Positions 3,914 to 58,232 of a DNA stretch of 64,000 nucleotides are shown here, in pieces. Position 1 is the first letter of the stretch; the number at the start of each line of letters is the position of its first letter. The notes beneath the pieces were generated by a model. It was not told the origin of the DNA. It saw only the letters and a program-made list of their open reading frames with translations, and searched no databases. Origin of the DNA: Deltaproteobacteria bacterium. Lineage in GTDB: Bacteria; Desulfobacterota_D; UBA1144; Nemesobacterales; UBA2774. The stretch spans positions 186,001 to 250,000 of the forward strand of contig JAJCZS010000029.1 in NCBI GenBank assembly GCA_029262275.1, in the 5' to 3' direction. A program made the position numbers and the translations under genes.

Positions 3914-3938
3914 GTAATTAATATTAGCTATTAATTAC
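3914..3938. terminator. AT-rich hairpin between convergent genes
   Basis: GTAATTAATA, loop TTAGC, TATTAATTAC: a perfect 10-bp stem between the convergent yihY and lectin genes, overlapping the lectin stop codon. It lacks GC pairs and a clear U-tract, so a terminator role is only plausible. Confidence 0.35.
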
Positions 3939-4740
3939 ACCTTAGCCTTCCGTTATCATTCCAAATACCATTATTGCAGTTCTTATATTTAATGCTTGAG
4001 TGTTTCCATCTGCCATTATCATTCTTACAATCGGCTTCAAGCACTTTTCCTTCCATGTAGAGATTTTTACATGATTTCTTGTAACTGCCTTTAGGGTAAT
4101 TTGAATTGTTACCGCCACCGCAAACTAATTTTCCATTATTGTTTTTTATATCTTTATTACATCCTTTGTAATTCATTGATGTTTTATTCCAACCACCATT
4201 ATTCTTCTTACAGTTTGAATACAGAGTAGAGCCCTCGACATATGAATTTTTACAAGTGTCTCTGTAGCTGCCCTTAGGTATTTTCCCGCCCTGACCGCCA
4301 CAGCTAAGCTCGCCGTTGTTGTTGCTTATATCACTCTTACATTTTTTATAATTAATATTTGTCTTATTCCAAGAGCCGTTTCGCGTCTCGCACTTAGCCC
4401 TTAATTTATTGCCATCCACCTTTATGTCTTTGCATGAGTTTTGATAGCTGCCAGAAGGAGGCTTTGGCCCGGGTTTCTTTTTACAGTTAAGTTTCCCATT
4501 ATCATTTGAGATATCCCCTTCACACTCTTCGTATTTCAATGCTGATCTTATGTATCCTCCGTTCTTGTTCTTACACAAGGCCGACAACACGTTACTCATC
4601 ATTACATCTATATCTTTACAGCTATTTTTGTAACTACCATCCGGTGGTTCAGCACTTTGAGCACCCGTATGGGGGAAAATGGCAAACATAAGAACTAATA
4701 CAGGTATAGCAAAGAAATAATATGGGAATTTTACATTCAT
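3931..4740 (-). CDS. Secreted cyanovirin-N homology (CVNH) repeat lectin
   Basis: A 269-residue exported protein (signal segment in residues 1-30) consisting of four tandem units of about 51 residues at 35-86, 97-147, 157-207 and 217-268. Each unit follows GSY-x2-(S/T)CK ... C(K/E) ... NG-x-W ... YK-x-C ... NNG-x-L-x-C, with four Cys per unit. This is the repeat that, taken twice, builds one cyanovirin-N domain, so the protein equals about two CVNH domains joined by Gly/Pro linkers. CVNH proteins bind oligomannose-type glycans; the target here is unknown. GGAGG lies 7 bases before the ATG. It ends a minus-strand group with two lipoproteins. Confidence 0.85.
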   Translation of the reverse strand: MNVKFPYYFFAIPVLVLMFAIFPHTGAQSAEPPDGSYKNSCKDIDVMMSNVLSALCKNKNGGYIRSALKYEECEGDISNDNGKLNCKKKPGPKPPSGSYQNSCKDIKVDGNKLRAKCETRNGSWNKTNINYKKCKSDISNNNGELSCGGQGGKIPKGSYRDTCKNSYVEGSTLYSNCKKNNGGWNKTSMNYKGCNKDIKNNNGKLVCGGGNNSNYPKGSYKKSCKNLYMEGKVLEADCKNDNGRWKHSSIKYKNCNNGIWNDNGRLRCN

Positions 4741-6399: not shown

Positions 6400-6918
6400 A
6401 TGGACCATAACAAAACCCAGAGCAAAACTTCTAATTCTGAACCTGAGGATAAAAGAAAAAGGTTTATTCTTCAGATAGTACAGCCAGGGTTGGCCGGATT
6501 GATGGATGGAACAGTTTCATCATTAGCGCCTCTATTTGCAGCGGCTTTGGCAACTCAAGATAGCAAAACAGCTTTTCTTGTCGGATTGGCTACAGCGGTG
6601 GGAGCCGGGATAAGTATGGCATTCTCTGAAGCATTATCAGATGACGGGGTTATAAGTGGGCGTGGGAGCCCGTGGTTAAGAGGGGTAGTAGAGGGAGGGA
6701 TGACTTTCCTTGGAGCAATTGGTCATGCATTGCCGTTTCTAATCCCACATTTCTGGACAGCATTTATAGTGGCCTCTGTGGTAGTGGCAATAGAGTTGAT
6801 TGTTATTGCATATATTAGAAACAAGTATATGGATACTCCTTTCTTAAGGGCTGCTTTTCAGATAATTGTTGGAGGGGTCATTGTTCTTACGGCAGGGATT
6901 TTAATAGGAAAATCATAA
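6400..6918 (+). CDS. VIT1/CCC1-type membrane transporter (iron/manganese)
   Basis: A 172-residue integral membrane protein. Residues 1-25 are hydrophilic; about five membrane segments follow. FILQIVQPGLAGLMDGTVSSLAPLFAAAL matches the first helix of VIT/CCC1 transporters with its conserved Asp/Gly face, and AGISMAFSEALSDDG corresponds to the second helix with a conserved acidic residue. The family exports Fe2+/Mn2+ from the cytoplasm; a metal-detoxification role is inferred, the ion is not readable. It resembles the membrane half of MbfA-type exporters but lacks the ferritin-like N-domain. It may be leaderless. Confidence 0.8.
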   Translation: MDHNKTQSKTSNSEPEDKRKRFILQIVQPGLAGLMDGTVSSLAPLFAAALATQDSKTAFLVGLATAVGAGISMAFSEALSDDGVISGRGSPWLRGVVEGGMTFLGAIGHALPFLIPHFWTAFIVASVVVAIELIVIAYIRNKYMDTPFLRAAFQIIVGGVIVLTAGILIGKS

Positions 6919-6921
6919 GCA

Positions 6922-8967
6922 TCATGATATAGACTTAGCTTCATGATGTTCGTGGAATTTATCCAGTACAAAATTGATCATTTTATCCCTTCTGATATAA
7001 CCTTTAACATATAGGTTGCTAAGATTATCTACAACCGGAACCCATTTTAGATTATGGTCTCTCATTGTAGCAGCAACAATAGTGCAAGATTCACTCTCTG
7101 TCACAACAATCGGTGAGCTTGTCATAAACTCCGATACTTTGGTCAAAGGAGTTGCGCCAGATTCAACAGCTCTAAATATATCTGTCCGTGTTAATATTCC
7201 TTCAAGTTTATTTGAACTATCAATCACACAGCAGAAATCAAGCTCTTTTTCACTCAGTGTTTTCACCGCAGTCTCAAATGTATCATTAGGATCAACGCTA
7301 ATATCAACTGGTCTTATAAAAGTAGAAAGTGGCTGGTTTTTAAGAATCTCGAATACCACCGGCAATTTTTGCCACATGCTGCCGCTTCTTCTCTTCACAG
7401 CATCAGCCAGAAAATCTCTAAAGGGTCTTAGGGCTCCTGAGATTTGCTCAAAAACTTTCTTGCCCATAACTGTGACTTCAAGCTCTGTCTTTGCTCTTAC
7501 TGCAGAACTTCTTACTCTGTGATCAAGCAGAGCCATTTCTCCAAAGAAGTCGCCCTCACCCAATATGGCGAGTACACTTTCATCTTCCTTGCCCGCGTCT
7601 CTAACAATTTCAACTTCGCCTGATTCTATAATATAAAAATCGTTTGAAGGATCACCTTCGCTAAATACATAATCACCCGGCTGAAAATGTGATTTACACA
7701 CCCTTTCCGTTAGATCAGCTTTTGGATGAGCAAGATCTCTGGAATAGAAGATCTCCCAGGCCCAGTCAAACCCAACTTTTAACTTATGAGAGAAACTAGG
7801 AAGCTTAAAGAGGTATACAGATCTCCATAAGAACCAAGCCGTAAATCCTGAAATATGAAAGCCTAGAAATTCTGCAACAGCGTTGTGTCCCCCGATAGCA
7901 CACAGTTGACCCAGCGGTCTAAAATAAAAGGGTTTAGTCTCTTTGTCTCTAATAACTCGGACTATATTTTGTGCGGCTTGTCTCCCCTGACGCTCAGCAA
8001 ACTGACCTGTGGGAGGGCTTGGCGTATCATTGTAAGAATTATTTATTAGTGCACAATCACCTACTGCCCATACATTTTCATGCCCCTTAACACGCATATC
8101 AGCCTCTGTAACTAGTCTGCCCCTTTCCTTTGGAGCATCTAACTTCTGTATTACAGGTGAGGTAGCATTACCAACAGTGCAAACTATTGTTGCACCATCT
8201 ATTGTATCTCCTTCACCAAAACCGACTCCCTCATGCGTTACATGTGACACTCGTCTGTTCAATATCACATTTATGCCTGCCTGCTCCATCTTAACTTTGG
8301 TGAAATCCCTTAACTTGGAGCTAACCTCAGGCAGAAGTTGGTCTCTGGAATGAACCAGGGTAACTTTGATTTCTTCTTTTGGGATATTTCTAAAAAACTT
8401 TCTTGTATCACGCACAAGATCGTTAATTTCCCCTGCGACCTCAACTCCACTGAAACCTCCCCCAACTACTACAAAAGAGAGGTACCAACGTCTTCTCTCC
8501 GCATTTTCACTAATCTCAGCATTCTCCATCTGCTGCATCACGTGATACCTAAGAGCTACAGCATCACCAACGGTTTTAAGAGGAAATGCATGATCCGCCA
8601 TACCTGGGATTAATCCCAAGTTCACTGAGGAGCCGCAGGCAATAACCAAGTGATCATAGTTCATATGACCTTTTTTATTCTCATTTCCCAAATACTCAAC
8701 AGTGTTATTGCTTACATCAATATTGATTATATCCTCGGTTCTGCAATAAACTCCTGGAAGCATCTGCCTAAGTGGCACAGCCACAGGCTCAGGGCTGATT
8801 GAGGCTCCAACTACTTCGGCCAATAGAGGTTGGAAAACTAGATAGTTCTCACTGTTATATAAAATAATGTCAGCTTCATCTCTTTTTAGCTGTTTGCGCA
8901 AAGTGAGCGCGCACTTAACTCCGGCGAAGCCGCCCCCAATAATTTTTATCTTCTTTTTAACTGCCAT
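6922..8967 (-). CDS. Type II NADH dehydrogenase-like oxidoreductase fused to cNMP-binding and CBS domains
   Basis: 681 residues, about 250 longer than a usual NDH-2. Residues 1-410 are the FAD/NAD(P) oxidoreductase: IIGGGFAGVKCALTL at the N-terminus for FAD, VVVGGGFSGVEVAGEI mid-protein for NAD, and VWAVGDCA for the second FAD contact. Residues about 418-530 are a cyclic-nucleotide-binding fold (QPGDYVFSEGDPSNDFY, then GDFFGEMALLDHRVRSSAVRA). Residues about 553-665 hold a pair of CBS motifs (LEGILTRTDIFRAV, YVKGYIRRDKMI). The first part would oxidise NADH and reduce quinone; the tail suggests control by a nucleotide. DoxX lies upstream on the same strand. Confidence 0.88.
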   Translation of the reverse strand: MAVKKKIKIIGGGFAGVKCALTLRKQLKRDEADIILYNSENYLVFQPLLAEVVGASISPEPVAVPLRQMLPGVYCRTEDIINIDVSNNTVEYLGNENKKGHMNYDHLVIACGSSVNLGLIPGMADHAFPLKTVGDAVALRYHVMQQMENAEISENAERRRWYLSFVVVGGGFSGVEVAGEINDLVRDTRKFFRNIPKEEIKVTLVHSRDQLLPEVSSKLRDFTKVKMEQAGINVILNRRVSHVTHEGVGFGEGDTIDGATIVCTVGNATSPVIQKLDAPKERGRLVTEADMRVKGHENVWAVGDCALINNSYNDTPSPPTGQFAERQGRQAAQNIVRVIRDKETKPFYFRPLGQLCAIGGHNAVAEFLGFHISGFTAWFLWRSVYLFKLPSFSHKLKVGFDWAWEIFYSRDLAHPKADLTERVCKSHFQPGDYVFSEGDPSNDFYIIESGEVEIVRDAGKEDESVLAILGEGDFFGEMALLDHRVRSSAVRAKTELEVTVMGKKVFEQISGALRPFRDFLADAVKRRSGSMWQKLPVVFEILKNQPLSTFIRPVDISVDPNDTFETAVKTLSEKELDFCCVIDSSNKLEGILTRTDIFRAVESGATPLTKVSEFMTSSPIVVTESESCTIVAATMRDHNLKWVPVVDNLSNLYVKGYIRRDKMINFVLDKFHEHHEAKSIS

Positions 8968-9029: not shown

Positions 9030-9416
9030 TTATTCTCCGCCGAACAACTTTTGAATAGTCCAGTTTCCTGGGCCCACTAGTGCGATAAAAAGAAAAGCTA
9101 TCATATAAAGCACCGCAAGCTCAAATTTAGAGAATGGGTCGCTAAATATGAATAGATGTACAGCAAATGCGGCGACCAACATATTTATCCCAGCAATTAA
9201 TGCCGATATTCTGGTGAATAGTCCGAATATTATAAGTAGAGGGAATAAAGTTTCAGCTGATATGGCTAGATAAGCTGCGACATTTGGCATTGGAAGACCC
9301 ATTTTAACTAGATTTTCTATAAATGGATCAGGATTTAAGAGCTTCCCCAGACCATGGCCAAGAATCATAATAATGCTTACCGAAACACGAAATAGAAATA
9401 GACCTAAATTATTCAT
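9030..9416 (-). CDS. DoxX family membrane protein
   Basis: 128 residues with four predicted membrane helices. FRVSVSIIMILGHGLGKLLNPDPF and LAISAETLFPLLIIFGLFTRISALIAGINML are typical of DoxX/DoxD-like proteins, which often accompany respiratory or oxidoreductase genes. GGAGGG precedes the ATG. It is 62 bases upstream of, and co-oriented with, the NDH-2 fusion gene, so a link to respiration or redox balance is plausible, but the family's biochemical role is not settled. Confidence 0.85.
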   Translation of the reverse strand: MNNLGLFLFRVSVSIIMILGHGLGKLLNPDPFIENLVKMGLPMPNVAAYLAISAETLFPLLIIFGLFTRISALIAGINMLVAAFAVHLFIFSDPFSKFELAVLYMIAFLFIALVGPGNWTIQKLFGGE

Positions 9417-10917: not shown

Positions 10918-12018
10918 TCAAATTTCTATATCCTTCTGTTTGACTGTTCTATCCTTTATACGAAAGACTCTGGCCTGCCCTTTATATAAGATTTCCTTAA
11001 TACTTGTTGTTGTGATAAAGATCTGCCCCTGAAACTTTTGAAGCAACTTAAACAAAAACTTCTTCCTATTACCATCAAGCTCACTTGTAACATCATCTAA
11101 GAGGAGAATGGGTACTTTCTGCAGCTCCTGTTCAATAATCTCGATCTCAGAGGCTTTTAGAGCTAAGGCTAGGTTCTTCGCCTCTCCTTGAGATGAGTAA
11201 ACAGAGGCGTCTTTGCCTGAAATAGAAAAGCTAATTTGATCTCTATGAGGCCCAGCCGTTGTATGGAAACGTCTTTTATCCTTCTCAAAGTTGAGTTTGA
11301 GCTTGTCCATAAACTCTTGCTCTAAATTCTTTGATATAGTAATAGAGCTTTTGTAATGTATGCCTATTTCGTGGTCAAGCCCTGAAGTTTCTCCGTATAT
11401 TCTTGTAAGCAAAGGCTCTATCTTTTTAATGTAATCAAGCCTTCTGGAAATCACTTTACATCCGATTTCTGCCAATTGCTGATCCCAAACCTCTATCTTA
11501 TCAAGAGTTAAAGAAGAAGATTTTGCTAAAACGGCATTTCTTTGGCTAAGAGCTCTTTGGTATAGCTTTAAATCTGCAAGGTGTGCTGGTTCAAGAGTGC
11601 TGATAACAGAATCAAGAAATCTCCTTCTACCCTGAGGGGAGCCTTTAACCAGCTCTATATCTGCGGGGAGGAATGTAACAATGTTATATCTTCCGTAAAC
11701 CTTGGAAGTTTTATATACGATTTTACCATTAATCTTAATTGTTTTATGATTCTCATTAAGAAGAATATGAACCTCATCAAAACCTGCCTGAGATTCAATC
11801 TCTCCTTTAAGCTTGAACTCATTTGTTCCGAATCTTATAATTTCTTCAGTTTTTAATTGTTTAAAGGGTTTGAAACTAAGCAAAAAGTGTATGGCTTCAA
11901 GTAGATTTGTTTTGCCCTGGGCATTCTCACCTATAATTAGGTTAAATCTGTTATGGAAACTAAAGGTTTCAGCTGGGTAGGATTTGAAGTTTTTTATTGT
12001 AAGGGATTTAAGTATCAC
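10918..12018 (-). CDS. recF: DNA replication/repair protein RecF
   Basis: 366 residues, the usual RecF length, with a GTG start. SMC-like ATPase: Walker A GENAQGKTNLLEA near residues 32-44, the QGRRRFLDSVIS region, the signature YSSQGEAKNLALALK, and Walker B VPILLLDDVTSELD. RecF with RecO and RecR loads RecA at gapped DNA. In many bacteria recF lies beside dnaN/gyrB; here it is orphaned between a thioesterase and, divergently, CDC48. recR is found at 38084. Confidence 0.93.
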   Translation of the reverse strand: MILKSLTIKNFKSYPAETFSFHNRFNLIIGENAQGKTNLLEAIHFLLSFKPFKQLKTEEIIRFGTNEFKLKGEIESQAGFDEVHILLNENHKTIKINGKIVYKTSKVYGRYNIVTFLPADIELVKGSPQGRRRFLDSVISTLEPAHLADLKLYQRALSQRNAVLAKSSSLTLDKIEVWDQQLAEIGCKVISRRLDYIKKIEPLLTRIYGETSGLDHEIGIHYKSSITISKNLEQEFMDKLKLNFEKDKRRFHTTAGPHRDQISFSISGKDASVYSSQGEAKNLALALKASEIEIIEQELQKVPILLLDDVTSELDGNRKKFLFKLLQKFQGQIFITTTSIKEILYKGQARVFRIKDRTVKQKDIEI

Positions 12019-12160: not shown

Positions 12161-14302
12161 ATGATTGCACTAAAAATATGTAAGATAGAAAAAAAGGACT
12201 CAGGCAAAGGTTTTGCCAGACTTAACTCCGGGGACATGCGTGAGATTGGCGTTGAAGCATGGGATCTTGTGGAGATAGGAGGCAAGAGAAAAACAATTGT
12301 CCGTGTAATGCCTCTTGAAAAATCAAAAACGAAAAAATCTATTATTGAACTTGATGACGTAACCAGAGAAAATGCTCGTGTAGATATTGATGAGCACGTC
12401 TTTGTTAAAAAAATCGATTCGAAGTCTGCAACCAAGGTAGTCCTTGCCCCAAGAAATAATGACATGCTTTACAACGGCAATGAAAGCAAATTCTTACTAG
12501 ATAGACTAGATGGTTTCCCAATAACTGTGGGTGACAGGCTAAGAGTAAACCTTCCGGGCAAAAAGAATGAGGAATTTCATGTAGTAGGAATAATGCCCTC
12601 CAACTCTGTAATCATAAGAGCTTCAACCAAGTTAGATGTTAAAAAACGCCCAAAAGAAAAATTCGACAGCTCAAAGGTCAGCTATGAAGATGTTGGTGGA
12701 GTCGAGGAGCAATTAAAGAAGATAAGAGAAATTGTAGAATTGCCACTTAAATACCCACAACTATTTAACAAAATGGGTATTGATCCTCCCAGAGGAATCC
12801 TTCTTGTAGGACCTCCAGGAAGCGGAAAAACTCTCTTAGCTAAAGCGGTTGCGCATGAAACCAATGCAAACTTTCAGGTTATTAACGGACCTGAGGTGAT
12901 GCACAAATTCTATGGAGAGAGCGAGGCTAGACTAAGAGACATCTTTGAGATAGCAACAAGAAATCAGCCGTCAATAATATTTCTCGATGAATTAGACGCC
13001 ATAGCCCCTAAAAGAGATAAAGTGTCTGGGGATGTAGAGAAAAGGATAGTAGCCCAGCTGCTTTCTCTAATGGATGGGCTTAAGGATCGAGGAAACATTG
13101 TAGTGATCGGAGCTACAAACCTGCCTTCTGCTCTGGATCCTGCACTTAGAAGACCAGGCAGATTCGATAGAGAAGTGAGTTTGGATGTTCCTAACAGAAA
13201 CGGAAGACTTCAGATCCTAAGAGTTCATTCACGCGGAATGCCGCTTGATGAAGATCTTGATTTAGAAAAGCTTGCTGATTTAACTCATGGTTTTGTGGGT
13301 GCGGATATTGAGAACCTGTGCAGAGAAGCAGCAATGAAAGCTCTAAGAAGAACCCTTCCTGAGTTTGATGAAGATGATGAAGGAACCAGTTCAAAAAATC
13401 TTGAAATACAGCCTATATCAGTAGACATGGGCGACTTTATGGATGCATTAAAAGAGGTCGAACCCTCAGCAATTAGAGAAATATTTGTAGAAATATCAAA
13501 AGTAACTTGGGATGACATAGGCGGCTTAAACGATATCAAAGAAAAGCTGGTAGAAGCAGCTATATGGCCATTTACGCACAAAGACCTATTTGAATTAACC
13601 GAGGCAAAGGCGCCAAAAGGGATTTTATTATGTGGTCCACCGGGAACAGGAAAAACACTGGCGGCAAAAGCCTTGGCAAATCAAAGTGGAGCAAACTTTA
13701 TATCTATCAAAGGTGCAGAATTGCTCTCTAAATATGTAGGTGAATCTGAGCACGCAGTAAGAGATGTATTTAAAAAAGCTAAGCAAGTTGCTCCTTGCAT
13801 AATATTCTTTGATGAAGTTGATGCCCTTGCTCCATCCAGAAGAGAGTCTGACGGAACACGCGTATCGGAGAGGGTTGTGAGTCAACTGCTTACAGAGATG
13901 GATGGGATAGAGGATTTAAGAGAAGTTCTAATTTTAGCTGCAACTAATAGAGCAGATATTATAGACCCGGCTCTTCTCAGAGCAGGAAGGTTTGATATTA
14001 TTTTAAACTTCCCATACCCTGGGGAATCAGAGTTGTTAGAGATATTAAAAATCCATACCCGAGGAAAACCAATAGCTAGGGATGCGAAGTTAAAAGAAAT
14101 AGCCTCTAAAGCCAAAGGCTTTTCAGGTGCAGATATAGAGCTTTTGTGCCAAAGAGCCTCAATGATTGCAATAAGAGAGCATATAAAAAATCGCAAAAAG
14201 AGTCTCAAAATCACATATACCCATTTCACTGAAGCCTTAGAAGAGATAAAACAAAAATTATCCGCCCATTCAGGATTAAACCCCAAAGGCCTAACGGACT
14301 GA
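12161..14302 (+). CDS. CDC48/VCP-like double AAA+ ATPase
   Basis: 713 residues arranged as in p97/VAT: a double-psi-barrel N-domain (residues 1-160), D1 with Walker A GPPGSGKT at 217-224 and Walker [17 protein letters not shown], and D2 with Walker A GPPGTGKT at 492-499 and Walker [17 protein letters not shown], plus arginine fingers in [10 protein letters not shown] and [10 protein letters not shown]. It should form a hexameric protein-unfolding machine. CDC48 is universal in archaea and eukaryotes and patchy in bacteria. No proteasome or ubiquitin-like gene is in the window, so the downstream protease is unknown. The next two genes follow closely on the same strand. Confidence 0.92.
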
Positions 14303-52751: not shown

Positions 52752-55007
52752 TTAAAAATCTGCCTTTAAATCCAAATCGCCTTGGCTTTCTAGATCAATA
52801 TTAAATACTTTCTCTGGCTTGCCATCTATTCCAGAAGCTTCAACCACTATATCATATTTCCCGGGAGGAAGGATAAACTCTATTGGGTTTTTATTAGTTT
52901 TGATACCTGTATAGCCAGTCGTAAGCTGTTCACCGGTTTTAGAGTCTTTGACCCTTATGGTGGACTTTATATTTTGCTCAGACTGTGTAGCAAACACTTT
53001 TATGACTCCTCTTGGAAACTGTACAATTTCTTCGATTGTATCTCCAGCTTTTAGTTCAATACTCTTAAACTCTTTAGATGGCGCAGTATTCATCTTAAGA
53101 GCATTCACTGACACATCATATACACCCGGAGACAATACAATCTCTTTGGGATTAGACTTAGCTTGTGGATAGGTACGAGCGCTTGTAACGTTTTCTCCAG
53201 TTGTTGAGTTTGTAATCGTTATCATAGTATCAACTAGTCTCTCGCCATCTTTAGCACCTATTTTAAAAGTACCACTCTCAAACTGTGCTTCTTTAACCAG
53301 AGTCTCTGCAGGCGTAATTTCGATTCCTTTAAACTCCTGTATCGGATTGTTTGTTATACCAAGAGCCTTTACATTTACATCATAGACACCCGGAGAAAGC
53401 TCAAATGTTTTGGGATTTGTTTTAGAGCTTTTATATGTACGTCCTTGGGCAACCTGCTCTCCCGTTTCAAGATTTTTAATATGTACTACAGCATCGAGAA
53501 ATCTTTCTCCCTCAAAAGCACCCACTTTTAATGTACCGCCTGAGAACTGAGCGGTTTCCTCGACTATCTCACCTGCTTTTACTTCTATATTGTCAAAAGA
53601 CAGGGGAGAGACACCTTTTATTCCTAATGGCTCAACAACAATACTGTATACACCCGGAGGAAGCTCAAATGTTTTGGGATTTGATTTAGGCCCTGTATAA
53701 GTGCGACCCTGGGCCACTTGTTCCTCGGTTGATGTATCTATAATCCTTACAACAGAATCATGGAGTTTCTCTCCTTTTAGAGAGCCTATTTTTATTGTAC
53801 CGCTTGAATAATCAACAACTTTTTCTACCATTTCACCACTTACAATCTCAACACCTTCCAACACCTGTTTAGGGCTAGTCTTAATCTCAAGCGCAGTGAC
53901 TTCTATGTTATATATTCCTGGCTCAAGCTTCATTACTTTAGGATTAGAGGTGGGTTTTGTGTAAGTACGTCCTTGAGCAATCCCCTCTTCTGTCTCAGAG
54001 TTAAGCACATGAACAGTAGCATCCGTTAATTTTTCGTTTCGGACGACTTTAATAGACAGCTCACCGAAGCCAAAATTGATTTCTTTCTCAACCACTTCCC
54101 CTTCCTTAATCTCAATGCCACTAAGAGTCTTGTTTTGTACCCCTTTCATACCTTGGGGTCTGATCTCTAGATCGTAAACTCCATCGGGAAGTGAAATTAT
54201 TCTCGGGTTTGTCGTAGGCTTTGTATAGGTTCTCTGTGCTTTTAATTCTTCGCCTGTTGATGTATTAGTCAGTACCAAATATGCATCCTGCAGCTTGCCC
54301 TCACCTGTAACTTTTACAGATAGCTTGCCCATTGGGAGCTCGGCAGGAATCTCTACCGCTGTCTCAAGAGCTTCTGTTAGCTCACTTGCATTCTGAGCGC
54401 TAAGATATAGACCACCTCCTGCCTGTGCAGCGCATTCGAGTTCTGAGACATCCACATCACCAACATCAAACCCCACAACATGCATTATAAAATTAATGCC
54501 AGCATCCTTGGCTTCTTTAACGGCCTGACATGGGTCACCACCACAAGTCTCTATACCATCACTAACGAGTATTACGGTTGTAGCATTCTCATTCGCTTTA
54601 ACAAGATCAAATGCCATTAAAACAGAATCTGTAATTGGTGTTTTCCCTTTGGGATTGAGAGCATCTATTTTTTGATTGATTGCGGCTTTATCCAGAGGAC
54701 CTGGCTGAACAATAGTCTCAATATCATTACAATCGCCTTTCTTATTGTGACCATAAGCTATTAGACCAACTTCACTATTGTCCGGTAGCTCACCAATAAG
54801 ATTTTTGAGTACAGACTTCGCAATAGAAATTTTGTTTTCGCCCTCAATTTGTCCCCACATAGAACCAGAGGCATCTAAGATAAGCAGCAACTCAGATGCA
54901 GAAGTTGCATTATCCTCTTGGGCATAGGAATTAATAGATATATGACCAATGAGTAGGAATCCAGCAAGAAGAATTAAAAATAGTCTTTGTGAACAGTAAG
55001 ATCTCAT
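52752..55007 (-). CDS. Secreted VWA-domain protein with six tandem beta-repeats
   Basis: 751 residues. Signal peptide to about residue 30, VWA domain about 38-215 with MIDAS Asp-x-Ser-x-Ser in LLILDASGSMWG and TTVILVSDGIETCGGDPC, then six repeats of about 87 residues from 230 to the C-terminus. Each starts G-x-(L/I/F)K(V/I), has TGEE..AQ.RTY..PK(S/T)NP, then PPGVYD(V/I)-x-V-x-ALGI, and ends GE-x-V-E. The repeats look like PEGA-like or carboxypeptidase-regulatory beta-sandwiches, suited to binding a wall or matrix. GGGAG before the ATG. Confidence 0.85.
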   Translation of the reverse strand: MRSYCSQRLFLILLAGFLLIGHISINSYAQEDNATSASELLLILDASGSMWGQIEGENKISIAKSVLKNLIGELPDNSEVGLIAYGHNKKGDCNDIETIVQPGPLDKAAINQKIDALNPKGKTPITDSVLMAFDLVKANENATTVILVSDGIETCGGDPCQAVKEAKDAGINFIMHVVGFDVGDVDVSELECAAQAGGGLYLSAQNASELTEALETAVEIPAELPMGKLSVKVTGEGKLQDAYLVLTNTSTGEELKAQRTYTKPTTNPRIISLPDGVYDLEIRPQGMKGVQNKTLSGIEIKEGEVVEKEINFGFGELSIKVVRNEKLTDATVHVLNSETEEGIAQGRTYTKPTSNPKVMKLEPGIYNIEVTALEIKTSPKQVLEGVEIVSGEMVEKVVDYSSGTIKIGSLKGEKLHDSVVRIIDTSTEEQVAQGRTYTGPKSNPKTFELPPGVYSIVVEPLGIKGVSPLSFDNIEVKAGEIVEETAQFSGGTLKVGAFEGERFLDAVVHIKNLETGEQVAQGRTYKSSKTNPKTFELSPGVYDVNVKALGITNNPIQEFKGIEITPAETLVKEAQFESGTFKIGAKDGERLVDTMITITNSTTGENVTSARTYPQAKSNPKEIVLSPGVYDVSVNALKMNTAPSKEFKSIELKAGDTIEEIVQFPRGVIKVFATQSEQNIKSTIRVKDSKTGEQLTTGYTGIKTNKNPIEFILPPGKYDIVVEASGIDGKPEKVFNIDLESQGDLDLKADF

Positions 55008-55115: not shown

Positions 55116-58100
55116 TCATTCTGCTAGACTTTGAGTCTCACTCGTTAAATAGAGCTTCCAGTCTTTTAGTACCTGATTGCCATCTTCGTCTACTACGTCA
55201 TCTACATTTAAATGACTGGTTAAGTAAAAAAGTCTCTCAATTTCATCCTTTTTAGCTGGGCCACGATTAGCATCACGAAACCTTTCCTGAAGATAATAAG
55301 GCGGAATGGACTGGTTATAGAGAGTTACCTTGATATCATGAACTTGGCTCAACATATCTTCATCAAGCGATATGAGATATTCAATTACATCAGCCCCTGT
55401 TAGAGACGGGTCAGTGTAATAAGGATCAAATTTAGCCTGACCATGGGTTTCTCCAAGCGCTTGAATAAAAGGTGACTCAGGAAACAGATCGACAAAAAGC
55501 TGAGGGTCGTATCCACTAGGCCTTAATCTATTGTCTTTAAGATCTTCTATTCGTCTTAAAAAGCTCGTAGTAAGATTGCCATCGGAATCCTTTAGTAGCT
55601 CCTGATAAATCTGAACTTGGTCATCTTGTGTTATAACCTGGTAATGAGGCTGAAACGGGTTGTCAGAGTATTTAATTGGCTCTTCACTCCGCAGCACTTC
55701 ATTTGTAGTACCTTTTAAAATAGCACCCAACTCATTAGTACGTCCTGAGGCCCATAGCACATTCCCATCAATATCTCTTACCAAAAACTCTATAAATACA
55801 CGTCTAAAACTAACACCTGATGGGAGATAATGCCCAACTAAGTTTACAACCTTCACCACTGCTCGAACTTCTCCCTCTGGTGTAATTTCTAAATTTTGTA
55901 TTTCAATTTCTGCTGTCTCTCTTTGTGCCATATAGATCATAGACTTCTCACCAGTAACTAGCGAGGGAACTATAGAAGTTCCAGTCATATAATCAATCTG
56001 ACGATAACCGAGCATCACAGGGAATTGCTGAAATATTTGGTTAAGAAAGATATTGAGGCCATGAAGAGAATGACGAGCAAATTCATCTCTTTTGGTCAAC
56101 TGAACATCCTCATCGGGCAATCGGTGTGTGGTAGGGGCAAAATCACTAGATTGTATATTTGCAATTTTAAAGGAAAGATCTTCATCTTTAAATTTCTGAG
56201 GCATATGACAATCGGCACATGACAGGAAATTATTTCCAGTAGGGGCAAAATCACTATTTACCCATTCAAGATGTGTGGTTTGCTCGTAGCTGTGACCTAC
56301 AATTTCTCCATCATTAGTTATTTTTGGTAAAAGAATATTATGGCAATTAGCGCATAAATCTGAACTTAAAGCATCCCGACCAATAAAATTACGCCTAAAC
56401 TTAGGTGTAATACCTAGTGCATGCTCCATAGATTTGGGAACAATTGTTTCATCAGGATAAGGACCATAAATCTCATCGGGTGGTCCTGTAACGAAATTAC
56501 CTGTGTAACCAGCCTCTTCACCTAAATCATCGCCTGTCATTCGATGGCAAACAGTGCATGAAATACCATCTCTTGCTAGTCCACCATACTTTTGATACTC
56601 ATTGTTTGCAGCATTTGGCCACTGCCCGACCATATCGAGACTAAACGGCTTTCCAAATGGAACTTCAGGAGGTGGAGGTATCCCAAACAGCTCCTCACAA
56701 CCTTCCGTGTCCTGTCCTAACGTATCTATAGCCAATTGGCGCTGTCCCATTACACCGTGGCAGTGAAGACATGTAGTTTCAATACAAGTAGCAAGATCTG
56801 GAAGATTATTAGTTTCACTTTGAAGCTGTGAGAAGAATATTGGATCACGTCCAGCAAGACCCATAGGAGATGCGCTCCATTCTCCATATGGAGAGAGGTT
56901 TATTAATTCACTTGACTCTTGATCTTTAAATACCATATTCGGAAGTGAGGCATTTGAATAAGTGGCATCATGACATCCTATACACTGATTAGATGTGAGA
57001 AACAGATCAGGACCTTCTGCGGCCGACACATGATGATCGTAGGTTTGTGCAGGCAGGCGATTAGGCCAGACGTCACTGTATCCTATTTCATCTAATTGAT
57101 CATAAAACTCTAGAAAATTGTTACTTGGTCCGGGCAAAGGGTGAGTGAATGGAGAATCATATCCGTCAACACCACCTTGTTCTCGTGTTGAAATGGTTTC
57201 TAGCAACCCAAGAGGGTCCTGAGTAATTAAACCAATTAACCCCGGTTGGTGTCCTTCTAGAAATTCCTCCGGAATAATCTCTTGAGGCTGATTAGATCTG
57301 TATTGTTTATATCCAATCCCTGGGCTTAATATATTTTCTAATGAAGAGAATGTTGACTCGTTTATTGCAGAAGCATGACAATTTACACAGTAGTTTCCAT
57401 ATTCATTATAGGGAAATACAATGTTTGGTATCTTGTTGGTACTAGAGAATACATAGCCTGTAGGAAACCATAGCGGATCTGGCATATTAGGAGTAAATCC
57501 GTTTTGAAAGAATTCATTTGAAGTAATACCTGATGCATTAAATATTGGTGGATTCCCTACTTGCCAGGCAAAAGTTATTGGATTCTCCTCTTCTGAAAAA
57601 CCGACCCAATACCATCCGTCATAAGACTCATCGTTTTGCTTAACCATTATTGCCCAGGAATCAGGTTCAACACCAGCTCTTACCTCCATACAGCTTTGGC
57701 TATTTAGCTTGATATTGAGATCATCATCGATTCCATGCATCTCTTTGATAATCATTGCGCCATCAGGAATTTCACCAAACCTGTCATTACAAAGCCAATC
57801 CACTATTTCAGGAGAATAATAAATCCTTACTGCTGGATGCACTCCAAAACTATCCCCACTACCAATCTCTCCAACATAGGGACCTGTCATTCGCCAAGTC
57901 ATGTCACCTATCCAACCTAACTCAGCTACATAGGTACGATTTCTAATAAAGCTTTGAAATGCTTGGTCATATTGATTTTTAGCATTGAGATCGGAAAGTG
58001 GCGGTGGATTTTGAAGATTTATTGGAGCCGGGTCTCCAAAACCTAAGGCGTTCTCACAAAAAAGTTCTATTTCTTCTTCACTAACAGTATCTATGGAATC

Positions 58101-58232
58101 CTGGCAAACCCATTCATTTGGGTCTTCAGGTAGTGGTCCATTAATGGGTTGATTAGTATTATTTTCGTCACAAGCGGCAAGAACAATTACAAGAACACAG
58201 ATATAAAATATGGCTCTATAGCCCAACTTCAT
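55116..58232 (-). CDS. Large hexahaem c-type cytochrome lipoprotein
   Basis: 1038 residues. Lipoprotein signal VIVLAACDENN. Six CxxCH haem sites: CVNCH, CIGCH, CLHCH, CTVCH, CANCH and CADCH, spread over the middle third, with no haem site in the last 330 residues, which form a beta-rich domain. Resembles multihaem cytochromes of unknown substrate in metal- or nitrogen-respiring bacteria. Probably a surface- or periplasm-facing electron carrier or oxidoreductase. Strong ribosome site AGGAG. No partner genes for maturation adjacent. Confidence 0.85.
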   Translation of the reverse strand: MKLGYRAIFYICVLVIVLAACDENNTNQPINGPLPEDPNEWVCQDSIDTVSEEEIELFCENALGFGDPAPINLQNPPPLSDLNAKNQYDQAFQSFIRNRTYVAELGWIGDMTWRMTGPYVGEIGSGDSFGVHPAVRIYYSPEIVDWLCNDRFGEIPDGAMIIKEMHGIDDDLNIKLNSQSCMEVRAGVEPDSWAIMVKQNDESYDGWYWVGFSEEENPITFAWQVGNPPIFNASGITSNEFFQNGFTPNMPDPLWFPTGYVFSSTNKIPNIVFPYNEYGNYCVNCHASAINESTFSSLENILSPGIGYKQYRSNQPQEIIPEEFLEGHQPGLIGLITQDPLGLLETISTREQGGVDGYDSPFTHPLPGPSNNFLEFYDQLDEIGYSDVWPNRLPAQTYDHHVSAAEGPDLFLTSNQCIGCHDATYSNASLPNMVFKDQESSELINLSPYGEWSASPMGLAGRDPIFFSQLQSETNNLPDLATCIETTCLHCHGVMGQRQLAIDTLGQDTEGCEELFGIPPPPEVPFGKPFSLDMVGQWPNAANNEYQKYGGLARDGISCTVCHRMTGDDLGEEAGYTGNFVTGPPDEIYGPYPDETIVPKSMEHALGITPKFRRNFIGRDALSSDLCANCHNILLPKITNDGEIVGHSYEQTTHLEWVNSDFAPTGNNFLSCADCHMPQKFKDEDLSFKIANIQSSDFAPTTHRLPDEDVQLTKRDEFARHSLHGLNIFLNQIFQQFPVMLGYRQIDYMTGTSIVPSLVTGEKSMIYMAQRETAEIEIQNLEITPEGEVRAVVKVVNLVGHYLPSGVSFRRVFIEFLVRDIDGNVLWASGRTNELGAILKGTTNEVLRSEEPIKYSDNPFQPHYQVITQDDQVQIYQELLKDSDGNLTTSFLRRIEDLKDNRLRPSGYDPQLFVDLFPESPFIQALGETHGQAKFDPYYTDPSLTGADVIEYLISLDEDMLSQVHDIKVTLYNQSIPPYYLQERFRDANRGPAKKDEIERLFYLTSHLNVDDVVDEDGNQVLKDWKLYLTSETQSLAE

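Follow-up and report, generated by a model that had tools for sequence, protein, structure and literature searches.

The window analysed here, a stretch of 64,000 nucleotides of contig JAJCZS010000029.1 from a Deltaproteobacteria bacterium (assembly GCA_029262275.1), carries a single minus-strand open reading frame (ORF) with an ATG start, encoding a 681-residue protein in which a type II NADH dehydrogenase (NDH-2) is joined to a cyclic nucleotide monophosphate (cNMP) binding domain and a CBS pair (Table 1). An initial annotation of this DNA had described one chain of that length in the order oxidoreductase, cNMP fold and CBS pair, which is confirmed by the ORF and by Pfam: a FAD/NAD(P) oxidoreductase domain is followed by NDH2_C, the cNMP domain and the CBS pair, with two stretches recognized by the PF00571 profile (E 6.3e-17).

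Table 1. Positions in the window of the fusion gene, its domains and key sites, and its upstream neighbor.
Feature	Position	Strand	Basis
NDH-2 / cNMP / CBS-CBS fusion, whole ORF including stop	6922..8967	-	Pfam and orthologues
FAD/NAD(P) two-dinucleotide-fold domain, residues 6–328	7984..8952	-	Pyr_redox_2, E 3.7e-47
His206 at the usual NADH-discriminating acid position	8350..8352	-	Alignment column counts
NDH2_C, residues 353–411, amphipathic membrane-anchor helices	7735..7911	-	PF22366, 3e-11
cNMP-binding domain, residues 427–509	7441..7689	-	PF00027, 1.6e-23
Phosphate-binding cassette FFGEMALLDHRVRSSA, residues 474–489 (E477, R486)	7501..7548	-	
CBS repeat 1, residues 556–602, GILTRTD (T593, D596)	7162..7302	-	PF00571, best stretch
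CBS repeat 2, about residues 611–664 (boundaries by eye), GYIRRDK	6976..7137	-	PF00571 stretch and model
DoxX family protein, upstream neighbor	9030..9416	-	PF07681, 4.5e-20

The catalytic part is an NDH-2 by its fold, its membrane domain and its catalytic residues, and represents a divergent subfamily. By sequence, residues 4–397 find their best PDB matches in NDH-2 from Caldalkalibacillus thermarum (E 1.2e-44) and from Staphylococcus aureus, while the cNMP part matches the regulatory domains of PKA and PKG as well as Bd1971, and the C-terminal end matches CBS proteins. An AlphaFold2 model from nine input sequences (mean predicted local distance difference test score 75.6, predicted template modeling score, pTM, 0.56) places the NDH2_C helices at residues 375–388 and 392–407. 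Residues 2–413 of this model superpose on the bacterial NDH-2 structures 5kmq (Z 41.8), 5na1 (Z 41.7) and 4nwz (Z 41.5), with 384–388 residues aligned at a root mean square deviation of 2.6–2.7. The top row of the fold search, 9a63 (Z 43.7), is an integrative model and not a crystal structure. The best 50 rows bear on residues 2–413 alone, and for cNMP and CBS the fold is deduced from sequence.

Both GxGxxG-like motifs, for FAD and for NAD(P)H, are present, GGGFAG at residues 11–16 and GGGFSGVE at 169–176. The conservation of individual residues was followed in 37 fused sequences, which include six of the eight fusions of a Planctomycetota sample and six of the ten of a Chloroflexota sample, leave out G1637 and L194, and count the near-copies L127 and L128 twice. 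These rows were picked by their likeness to the window protein, so that fused and unfused kin are unevenly sampled. The equivalent of the catalytic Glu (E176, corresponding to E172 in S. aureus) is Glu in all 37, the Asp of the GD motif (D304) is kept in all 37, and so are Q322 and A324 of the quinone-site motif GQFAER (residues 321–326).

The putative regulatory tail retains its recognition motifs in part. The initial annotation had singled out the phosphate-binding Glu and Arg of the cNMP pocket, and both are intact in the window protein as E477 and R486, nine residues apart. Glu is found at the first position in 34 of the 37 fused rows (Ser in two, Asp in one), and Arg at the second in 31 (His in five, Val in one). 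The cassette FFGEMALLDHRVRSSA is close in pattern to that of Bd1971, FGEMALIDNQNRSA, a protein that binds cAMP and cGMP and is stimulated by both; in excerpts of its description, Glu58 holds the ribose of cAMP and Arg67/Ser68 the phosphate (PMC6717892). A search of the window's genome at E≤1e-5 recovered no cNMP protein besides the fusion and one 162-residue frame on contig C45. The latter (C45:48638–49123, L165) is a standalone cNMP protein that has lost the phosphate cassette motif. For CBS domains, the ribose/phosphate motif is G-h-x-T/S-x-x-D, which includes T-x-x-D. Repeat 1 of the window protein has this motif, and its Thr and Asp occur in 15 of 15 three-part rows from Dadabacteria.

The fusion is not confined to the window. 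The organism of the window is a member of Candidatus Dadabacteria, to which the nearest records also belong, including six of another collection with 68–88% identity. All three parts share one frame in 15 of the 57 Dadabacteria genomes, a count that includes the genome of the window, although six of these 15 are apparently identical to the six other-collection records, as they give the same match figures. A frame-shift or assembly artefact is ruled out by the in-frame arrangement in both sets. By family, the fusion was found in 12 of 16 genomes of f1 together with an edge case, in one of seven of f2 together with G004, in both genomes of f4, and in none of the 32 others. Not every copy is complete. 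In G004 (locus L099) NDH-2 and cNMP stand alone in a 540-residue frame ended by a stop, and no CBS match was found in the 1.5 kb downstream. The NDH-2 part of G041 is seen at a contig edge, the frame of G029 lacks about the first 40 residues, and the match of G036 stops at residue 661. For G003 one TAA was flagged within the match, yet the extracted frame has 678 residues without an inner stop.

A distribution limited to Dadabacteria is ruled out by fusions in several other phyla. For instance, a complete three-part protein with 49% identity is encoded on a 1.1-Mb plasmid of Gemmatirosa kalamazoonensis, this single plasmid being the whole coverage of Gemmatimonadota, and three-part proteins occur in two genomes of the Planctomycetota sample (L174, L176). 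NDH-2 joined to cNMP without CBS is found in WP_096787383.1 of Rhodobacter sp. CZR27 and in L012, a Verrucomicrobia record, as well as in at least four of 289 genomes of an Alphaproteobacteria sample, at least one of 282 of a Myxococcota sample, at least one of 274 of a Gammaproteobacteria sample and, by match range, at least one of 149 of one further phylum sample. Fusions with or without CBS, again by match range, number at least eight in 294 genomes of the Planctomycetota sample and at least ten in 301 of the Chloroflexota sample. The counts are lower bounds, as only part of the candidates were scored per genome (usually 3–7) at thresholds of E≤1e-50 for Alphaproteobacteria and 1e-60 for the other five samples, and the phylum names of the samples are inferred. 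As a novelty, the architecture is weakened by the fusions of NDH-2 with cNMP in several other phyla. Some proteins met in the surveys have other extensions. In the Chloroflexota sample, L182 (1051–3102) carries an FHA domain in front of NDH-2 and cNMP, which is a further regulatory domain, and two NDH-2s of the same sample (L190, L193) have a long hydrophobic N-terminal region, apparently membrane-spanning by eye, with no cNMP match. A 430-residue N-terminal extension of L011 was rejected as a domain, as its sequence looks like spurious read-through ahead of the true start, and L011 was counted as unfused.

The tree of the NDH-2 domain is consistent with a common descent of the fused forms. 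In a tree of 63 rows, all 37 fused rows lie in one 48-row clade (support 100/97), inside which 11 unfused rows form one nested branch (100/89). Adding unfused L154 and fused L194 (65 rows) gives a 50-row clade (99/97) that takes in every one of the 38 fused rows; its unfused rows, now 12, again form one nested branch (99/89), and the fused/unfused label changes twice. One old gain of cNMP and one loss would fit this tree, and other histories are possible. In a first tree of 64 rows, the unfused rows of the fused clade did not form one branch, and the forks were weak. That tree excludes the duplicates L001, L005–L010 and L114 as well as hits spanning fewer than 330 query positions; the 63-row tree excludes 23 more loci, most of them distant and unfused, together with L154, unfused and long-branched, which the first tree had placed within the clade. 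L194 had been suspected to be an independent fusion; its place is within the fused clade, but it has the longest branch there, so that its placement is unsure. The branch of the window protein unites the Dadabacteria with Gemmatirosa and with three NDH-2+cNMP proteins from the Planctomycetota sample; it comprises 20 rows and has support of 100/100 in the second tree as in the third. Changes of state are more frequent for the CBS pair, five of them in the 63-row tree.

All domains of the fusion are maintained under purifying selection. For five orthologue pairs with finite synonymous distances (dS), of 0.26–1.75, the ratio of nonsynonymous to synonymous substitution rates (dN/dS) is 0.034–0.077 for the NDH-2 core (residues 1–345), 0.036–0.093 for cNMP and 0.052–0.156 for the CBS pair, which has the highest value of the three in four of the five pairs. 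Thirteen comparisons of the window protein with relatives, mostly saturated in dS, were excluded. Decay of the C-terminal tail is ruled out by these ratios. The regulatory-looking variant of NDH-2 is real and conserved.

With these features, we lean slightly towards a ligand-gated, monotopic membrane-anchored NAD(P)H:quinone oxidoreductase, a subfamily of NDH-2 with an allosteric C-terminal tail. Taken by its parts, the protein is very probably a quinone-reducing NAD(P)H dehydrogenase, quinone being the presumed acceptor, and control by some nucleotide ligand is fairly probable, with the binding, the allostery and the direction of control presumed. That the ligand of the cNMP domain is cAMP itself seems unlikely. 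The cNMP domain comes directly after the amphipathic membrane helices, and a helical linker leads from it to the CBS pair. In the proposed working, a cyclic-nucleotide-like ligand would occupy the cNMP pocket, and an adenylate (AMP, ADP or ATP) the single intact CBS site. The ligands could move the linker helices and thereby alter how active the enzyme is, how it sits in the membrane or how its dimer is held together. A nucleotide signal would then govern the entry of electrons into the quinone pool, alongside the two tail-less NDH-2s of the same genome, one of which lies on contig C45 beside cytochrome b and COX1, with a NuoF gene on the same contig.

Several observations weigh against this reading. 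In the catalytic part, the quinone motif of the window protein is GQxAxR, of which Q, A and R fit AQxAxR and the first Ala is replaced by Gly; the main motifs of NDH-2s are AQxAxQ, AQxAxR and APxAxQ (PMC5299459). Near the NADH adenine, the Trp of WxxG, found in 99% of 1762 NDH-2s and absent from the selection criteria in the excerpted text of that survey (PMC5299459), is replaced by Cys263 (C263xxG266). In the cNMP pocket, the phosphate Arg is changed to His in 3 of 16 Dadabacteria sequences (the 15 three-part ones and L099) as well as in L176 and L181, and to Val in L170, while L127, L128 and L170 lack the cassette Glu. The motif of CBS repeat 2 is degenerate in the window protein, the Thr of repeat 1 is Arg in Gemmatirosa, and the whole pair is missing in L099 and 18 other fused rows, so that the core design does not require it. 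Confidence in the model is low around the cassette (476–485) and the linker (508–535), and with the pTM given above, domain contacts are unreadable from it. Finally, a canonical class III cyclase (PF00211, E≤1e-5) was not found in 11 of 17 carriers, the window's genome included.

The first two of these points raise the question of whether the catalytic part is another two-dinucleotide-fold flavoprotein, such as an FSP1-like protein or a sulfide:quinone oxidoreductase (SQR), chains of which also match the model with Z about 33 and 31. This is very improbable, since the protein has a Pfam hit to NDH2_C and NDH-2 chains outrank those of FSP1 and SQR both by Z and by sequence E-value.

Changes in the dinucleotide site bear on the substrate. 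An acidic residue of NDH-2s, E272 in Ndi1, has been proposed to shut out the phosphate of NADPH (PMC11670749). The window protein has His206, followed by Ser-Arg, where C. thermarum NDH-2 has Glu. Together with Cys263, His206 makes an altered dinucleotide site at which the use of NADPH, or of both dinucleotides, is plausible, and NADH as the substrate, which the initial annotation had assumed, is weakened. It may be that mainly NADPH, not NADH, is vented to the quinone pool while the tail responds to the state of biosynthesis or of the adenylates, which would make the enzyme a functional bacterial counterpart of the plant Ca2+-gated NDB1 with a nucleotide tail replacing the EF-hand. We regard this as a serious possibility, somewhat short of an even chance, and it is compatible with ligand gating. 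In the first alignment, all 17 rows from the Dadabacteria/Gemmatirosa branch have His at position 206, and 13 of them His-Ser-Arg; none of the 37 fused rows has the WxxG Trp, against 15 of the 26 unfused ones; and the two other NDH-2s of the genome retain Asp or Glu plus Trp at these sites. Nevertheless, the larger set has His in 28 of 37 fused rows, Gln in four and Glu in five, and the unfused relative L167 also has His-Ser-Arg. Residue 206 alone is no proof of NADPH use and a poor sole predictor, because an Ogataea NDH-2 with Gln at the discriminating position used only NADH in the assay reported in the excerpt (PMC11670749).

Alternatively, the tail may not sense nucleotides, the cNMP and CBS domains serving mainly for dimerization or docking of a constitutive NDH-2. 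Such a role would agree with the loss of the phosphate Arg in 6 of 37 fused rows, the degenerate second CBS motif, the loss of the CBS pair in G004, the 12 unfused relatives nested in the fused clade and the 11 carriers that gave no hit to a canonical class III cyclase at E≤1e-5. However, a purely structural role does not need the cassette residues that most fused rows keep across several phyla, nor the Thr and Asp of CBS repeat 1 that all the three-part Dadabacteria rows share, and we consider it a minority prospect. The notion of a respiratory dehydrogenase with nucleotide modules is supported as to the FAD dehydrogenase, the intact cNMP cassette, the CBS pair, their conservation and the purifying selection on them, and is weakened in that only the first CBS repeat keeps T-x-x-D; if adenylates bind to the CBS pair, one site is likelier than two.

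The doubt over endogenous cAMP is the main weakness of the reading in the initial annotation. In a search confined to class III, the window's genome, which is 97.5% complete, yielded no cyclase at E≤1e-5. Class III cyclases do occur in carriers G003, G004, G009, G028, G030 and G036. A search at E≤10, run on the 11 cyclase-less carriers and G036, gave only weak hits (E 0.04–0.36) in six of the 11, the window's genome having one at E 0.36, and none in the other five. Endogenous cAMP in the organism of the window is doubtful because a canonical class III cyclase was not found there, as in the other carriers of the 11, and the cAMP-like ligand first suggested is weakened both by this and by the Arg to His changes in Dadabacteria.

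Five of the six weak hits (in the window's genome, G031, G035, G040 and G041) are a conserved protein of about 400–415 residues, apparently membrane-bound, part of which resembles a cyclase. Where two aligned class III cyclases have their first metal Asp, each of the five copies has Lys. Pfam finds HAMP and Guanylate_cyc weakly in two of three copies scanned, and neither in the copy of the window's genome. The latter lies outside the window on contig C29 (L166, 3640–4884) and is a possible pseudo-cyclase; in L159 the gene stands just upstream of an ORF resembling mnmA by eye.

CRP/FNR relatives bind heme, 2-oxoglutarate or halogenated aromatics, and the cNMP fold of the fusion could similarly bind something besides a cyclic mononucleotide, in accordance with the carriers lacking a canonical class III cyclase. 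This is distinctly unlikely, since the cassette is of the cAMP/cGMP type as described in the Bd1971 excerpts (PMC6717892), unlike the degenerate one of the other cNMP protein of the genome.

The ligand-gated reading can be carried further, with considerable reserve: an old, multi-phylum subfamily of NDH-2 might be a receptor of both a second messenger and adenylates, which in the clade of the window uses NADPH or both dinucleotides and acts as a nucleotide-gated redox valve. Should this be true, the cyclase-less genomes would obtain the ligand from an unrecognized enzyme or by uptake, or use a different nucleotide.

NDH-2 is usually regarded as an unregulated, non-pumping valve. Neurospora NDE1 is an EF-hand, Ca2+-gated member of the family. 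The DUF294/COG2905 signaling proteins share with the fusion a cNMP domain followed by a CBS pair and differ in the output, a nucleotidyltransferase-like domain. The bacterial NDH-2s of C. thermarum (4nwz, 5kmr) and S. aureus (5na1) share the dinucleotide folds, the catalytic Glu, the GD Asp and the amphipathic helices, whereas the fusion has His206, Cys263, GQxAxR and 270 extra residues of cNMP and CBS. Built-in control of NDH-2 in print, as far as the excerpted survey goes, consists of the EF-hand by which plant and fungal forms sense Ca2+, and CxxC insertions are mentioned as well (PMC5299459). Like the fusion, plant NDB1 is an NDH-2 that carries its own regulatory domain, and it uses NADPH (PMC4587368, PMC5299459); in the excerpts of these sources the Ca2+-sensing insertion of EF-hand forms comes after the GD motif, whereas the cNMP and CBS tail of the fusion follows the membrane anchor. 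ATII-TrxR likewise joins a cNMP domain to a two-dinucleotide-fold flavoenzyme, but the domain is N-terminal and the enzyme a thioredoxin reductase with redox cysteines, and the excerpted text mentions neither an NDH-2 membrane domain nor CBS (PMC6544261). Bd1971, a cAMP-gated cyclic di-GMP phosphodiesterase of Bdellovibrio, has a very similar cassette and uses cNMP as an allosteric switch; it differs as an EAL enzyme with an N-terminal cNMP domain and, in the excerpted description, no CBS (PMC6717892). In a search of the open-access literature, judged by titles and the openings of abstracts, no paper was recognized as reporting an NDH-2 that carries either domain, cNMP or CBS. Fused forms may nevertheless have been known to the authors of PMC5299459, because NDH-2s with 'possible other domains fused' were left out there, according to the excerpt. 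If the tails sense nucleotides, bacterial respiration could be throttled post-translationally, directly at the dehydrogenase, and the conservation in several phyla suggests that some bacteria control respiration at the enzyme in this manner.

The upstream neighbor DoxX had been thought a possible part of the system. Of the 13 f1 loci, 7 have it, the window's among them, and the other six lack it, with just 87–234 bases between the neighboring matches, so that DoxX is rejected as an obligate partner; the stable gene pairing expected of a DoxX/TQO-like redox complex is not seen. A DsbD_N-type protein is encoded upstream in all 13 f1 loci. Neither protein was matched in the flanks (≤1.5 kb) of four f2/f4 loci. 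On the other side of the fusion gene, and convergent with it, lies a gene for a 172-residue VIT-type protein (6400–6918, plus strand), which adjoins the fusion gene in 9 of 13 f1 loci, the window included, with two of the other four edge-cut. It matches only the C-terminal half (149–318) of the iron exporter MbfA (277.5 bits, cut-off 450).

Elsewhere in the window, a 269-residue protein (3931–4740, minus strand) has three stretches of CVNH domain, a cyanovirin-like lectin (3.6e-32). A 1038-residue protein with weak cytochrome c family hits (55116–58232, minus strand) stands beside a VWA protein (52752–55007). A CDC48-family double AAA ATPase (12161–14302, plus strand) scores 857.9 bits against a curated cut-off of 802.65, and its gene is divergent from a RecF/SMC-type gene at 10918–12018.

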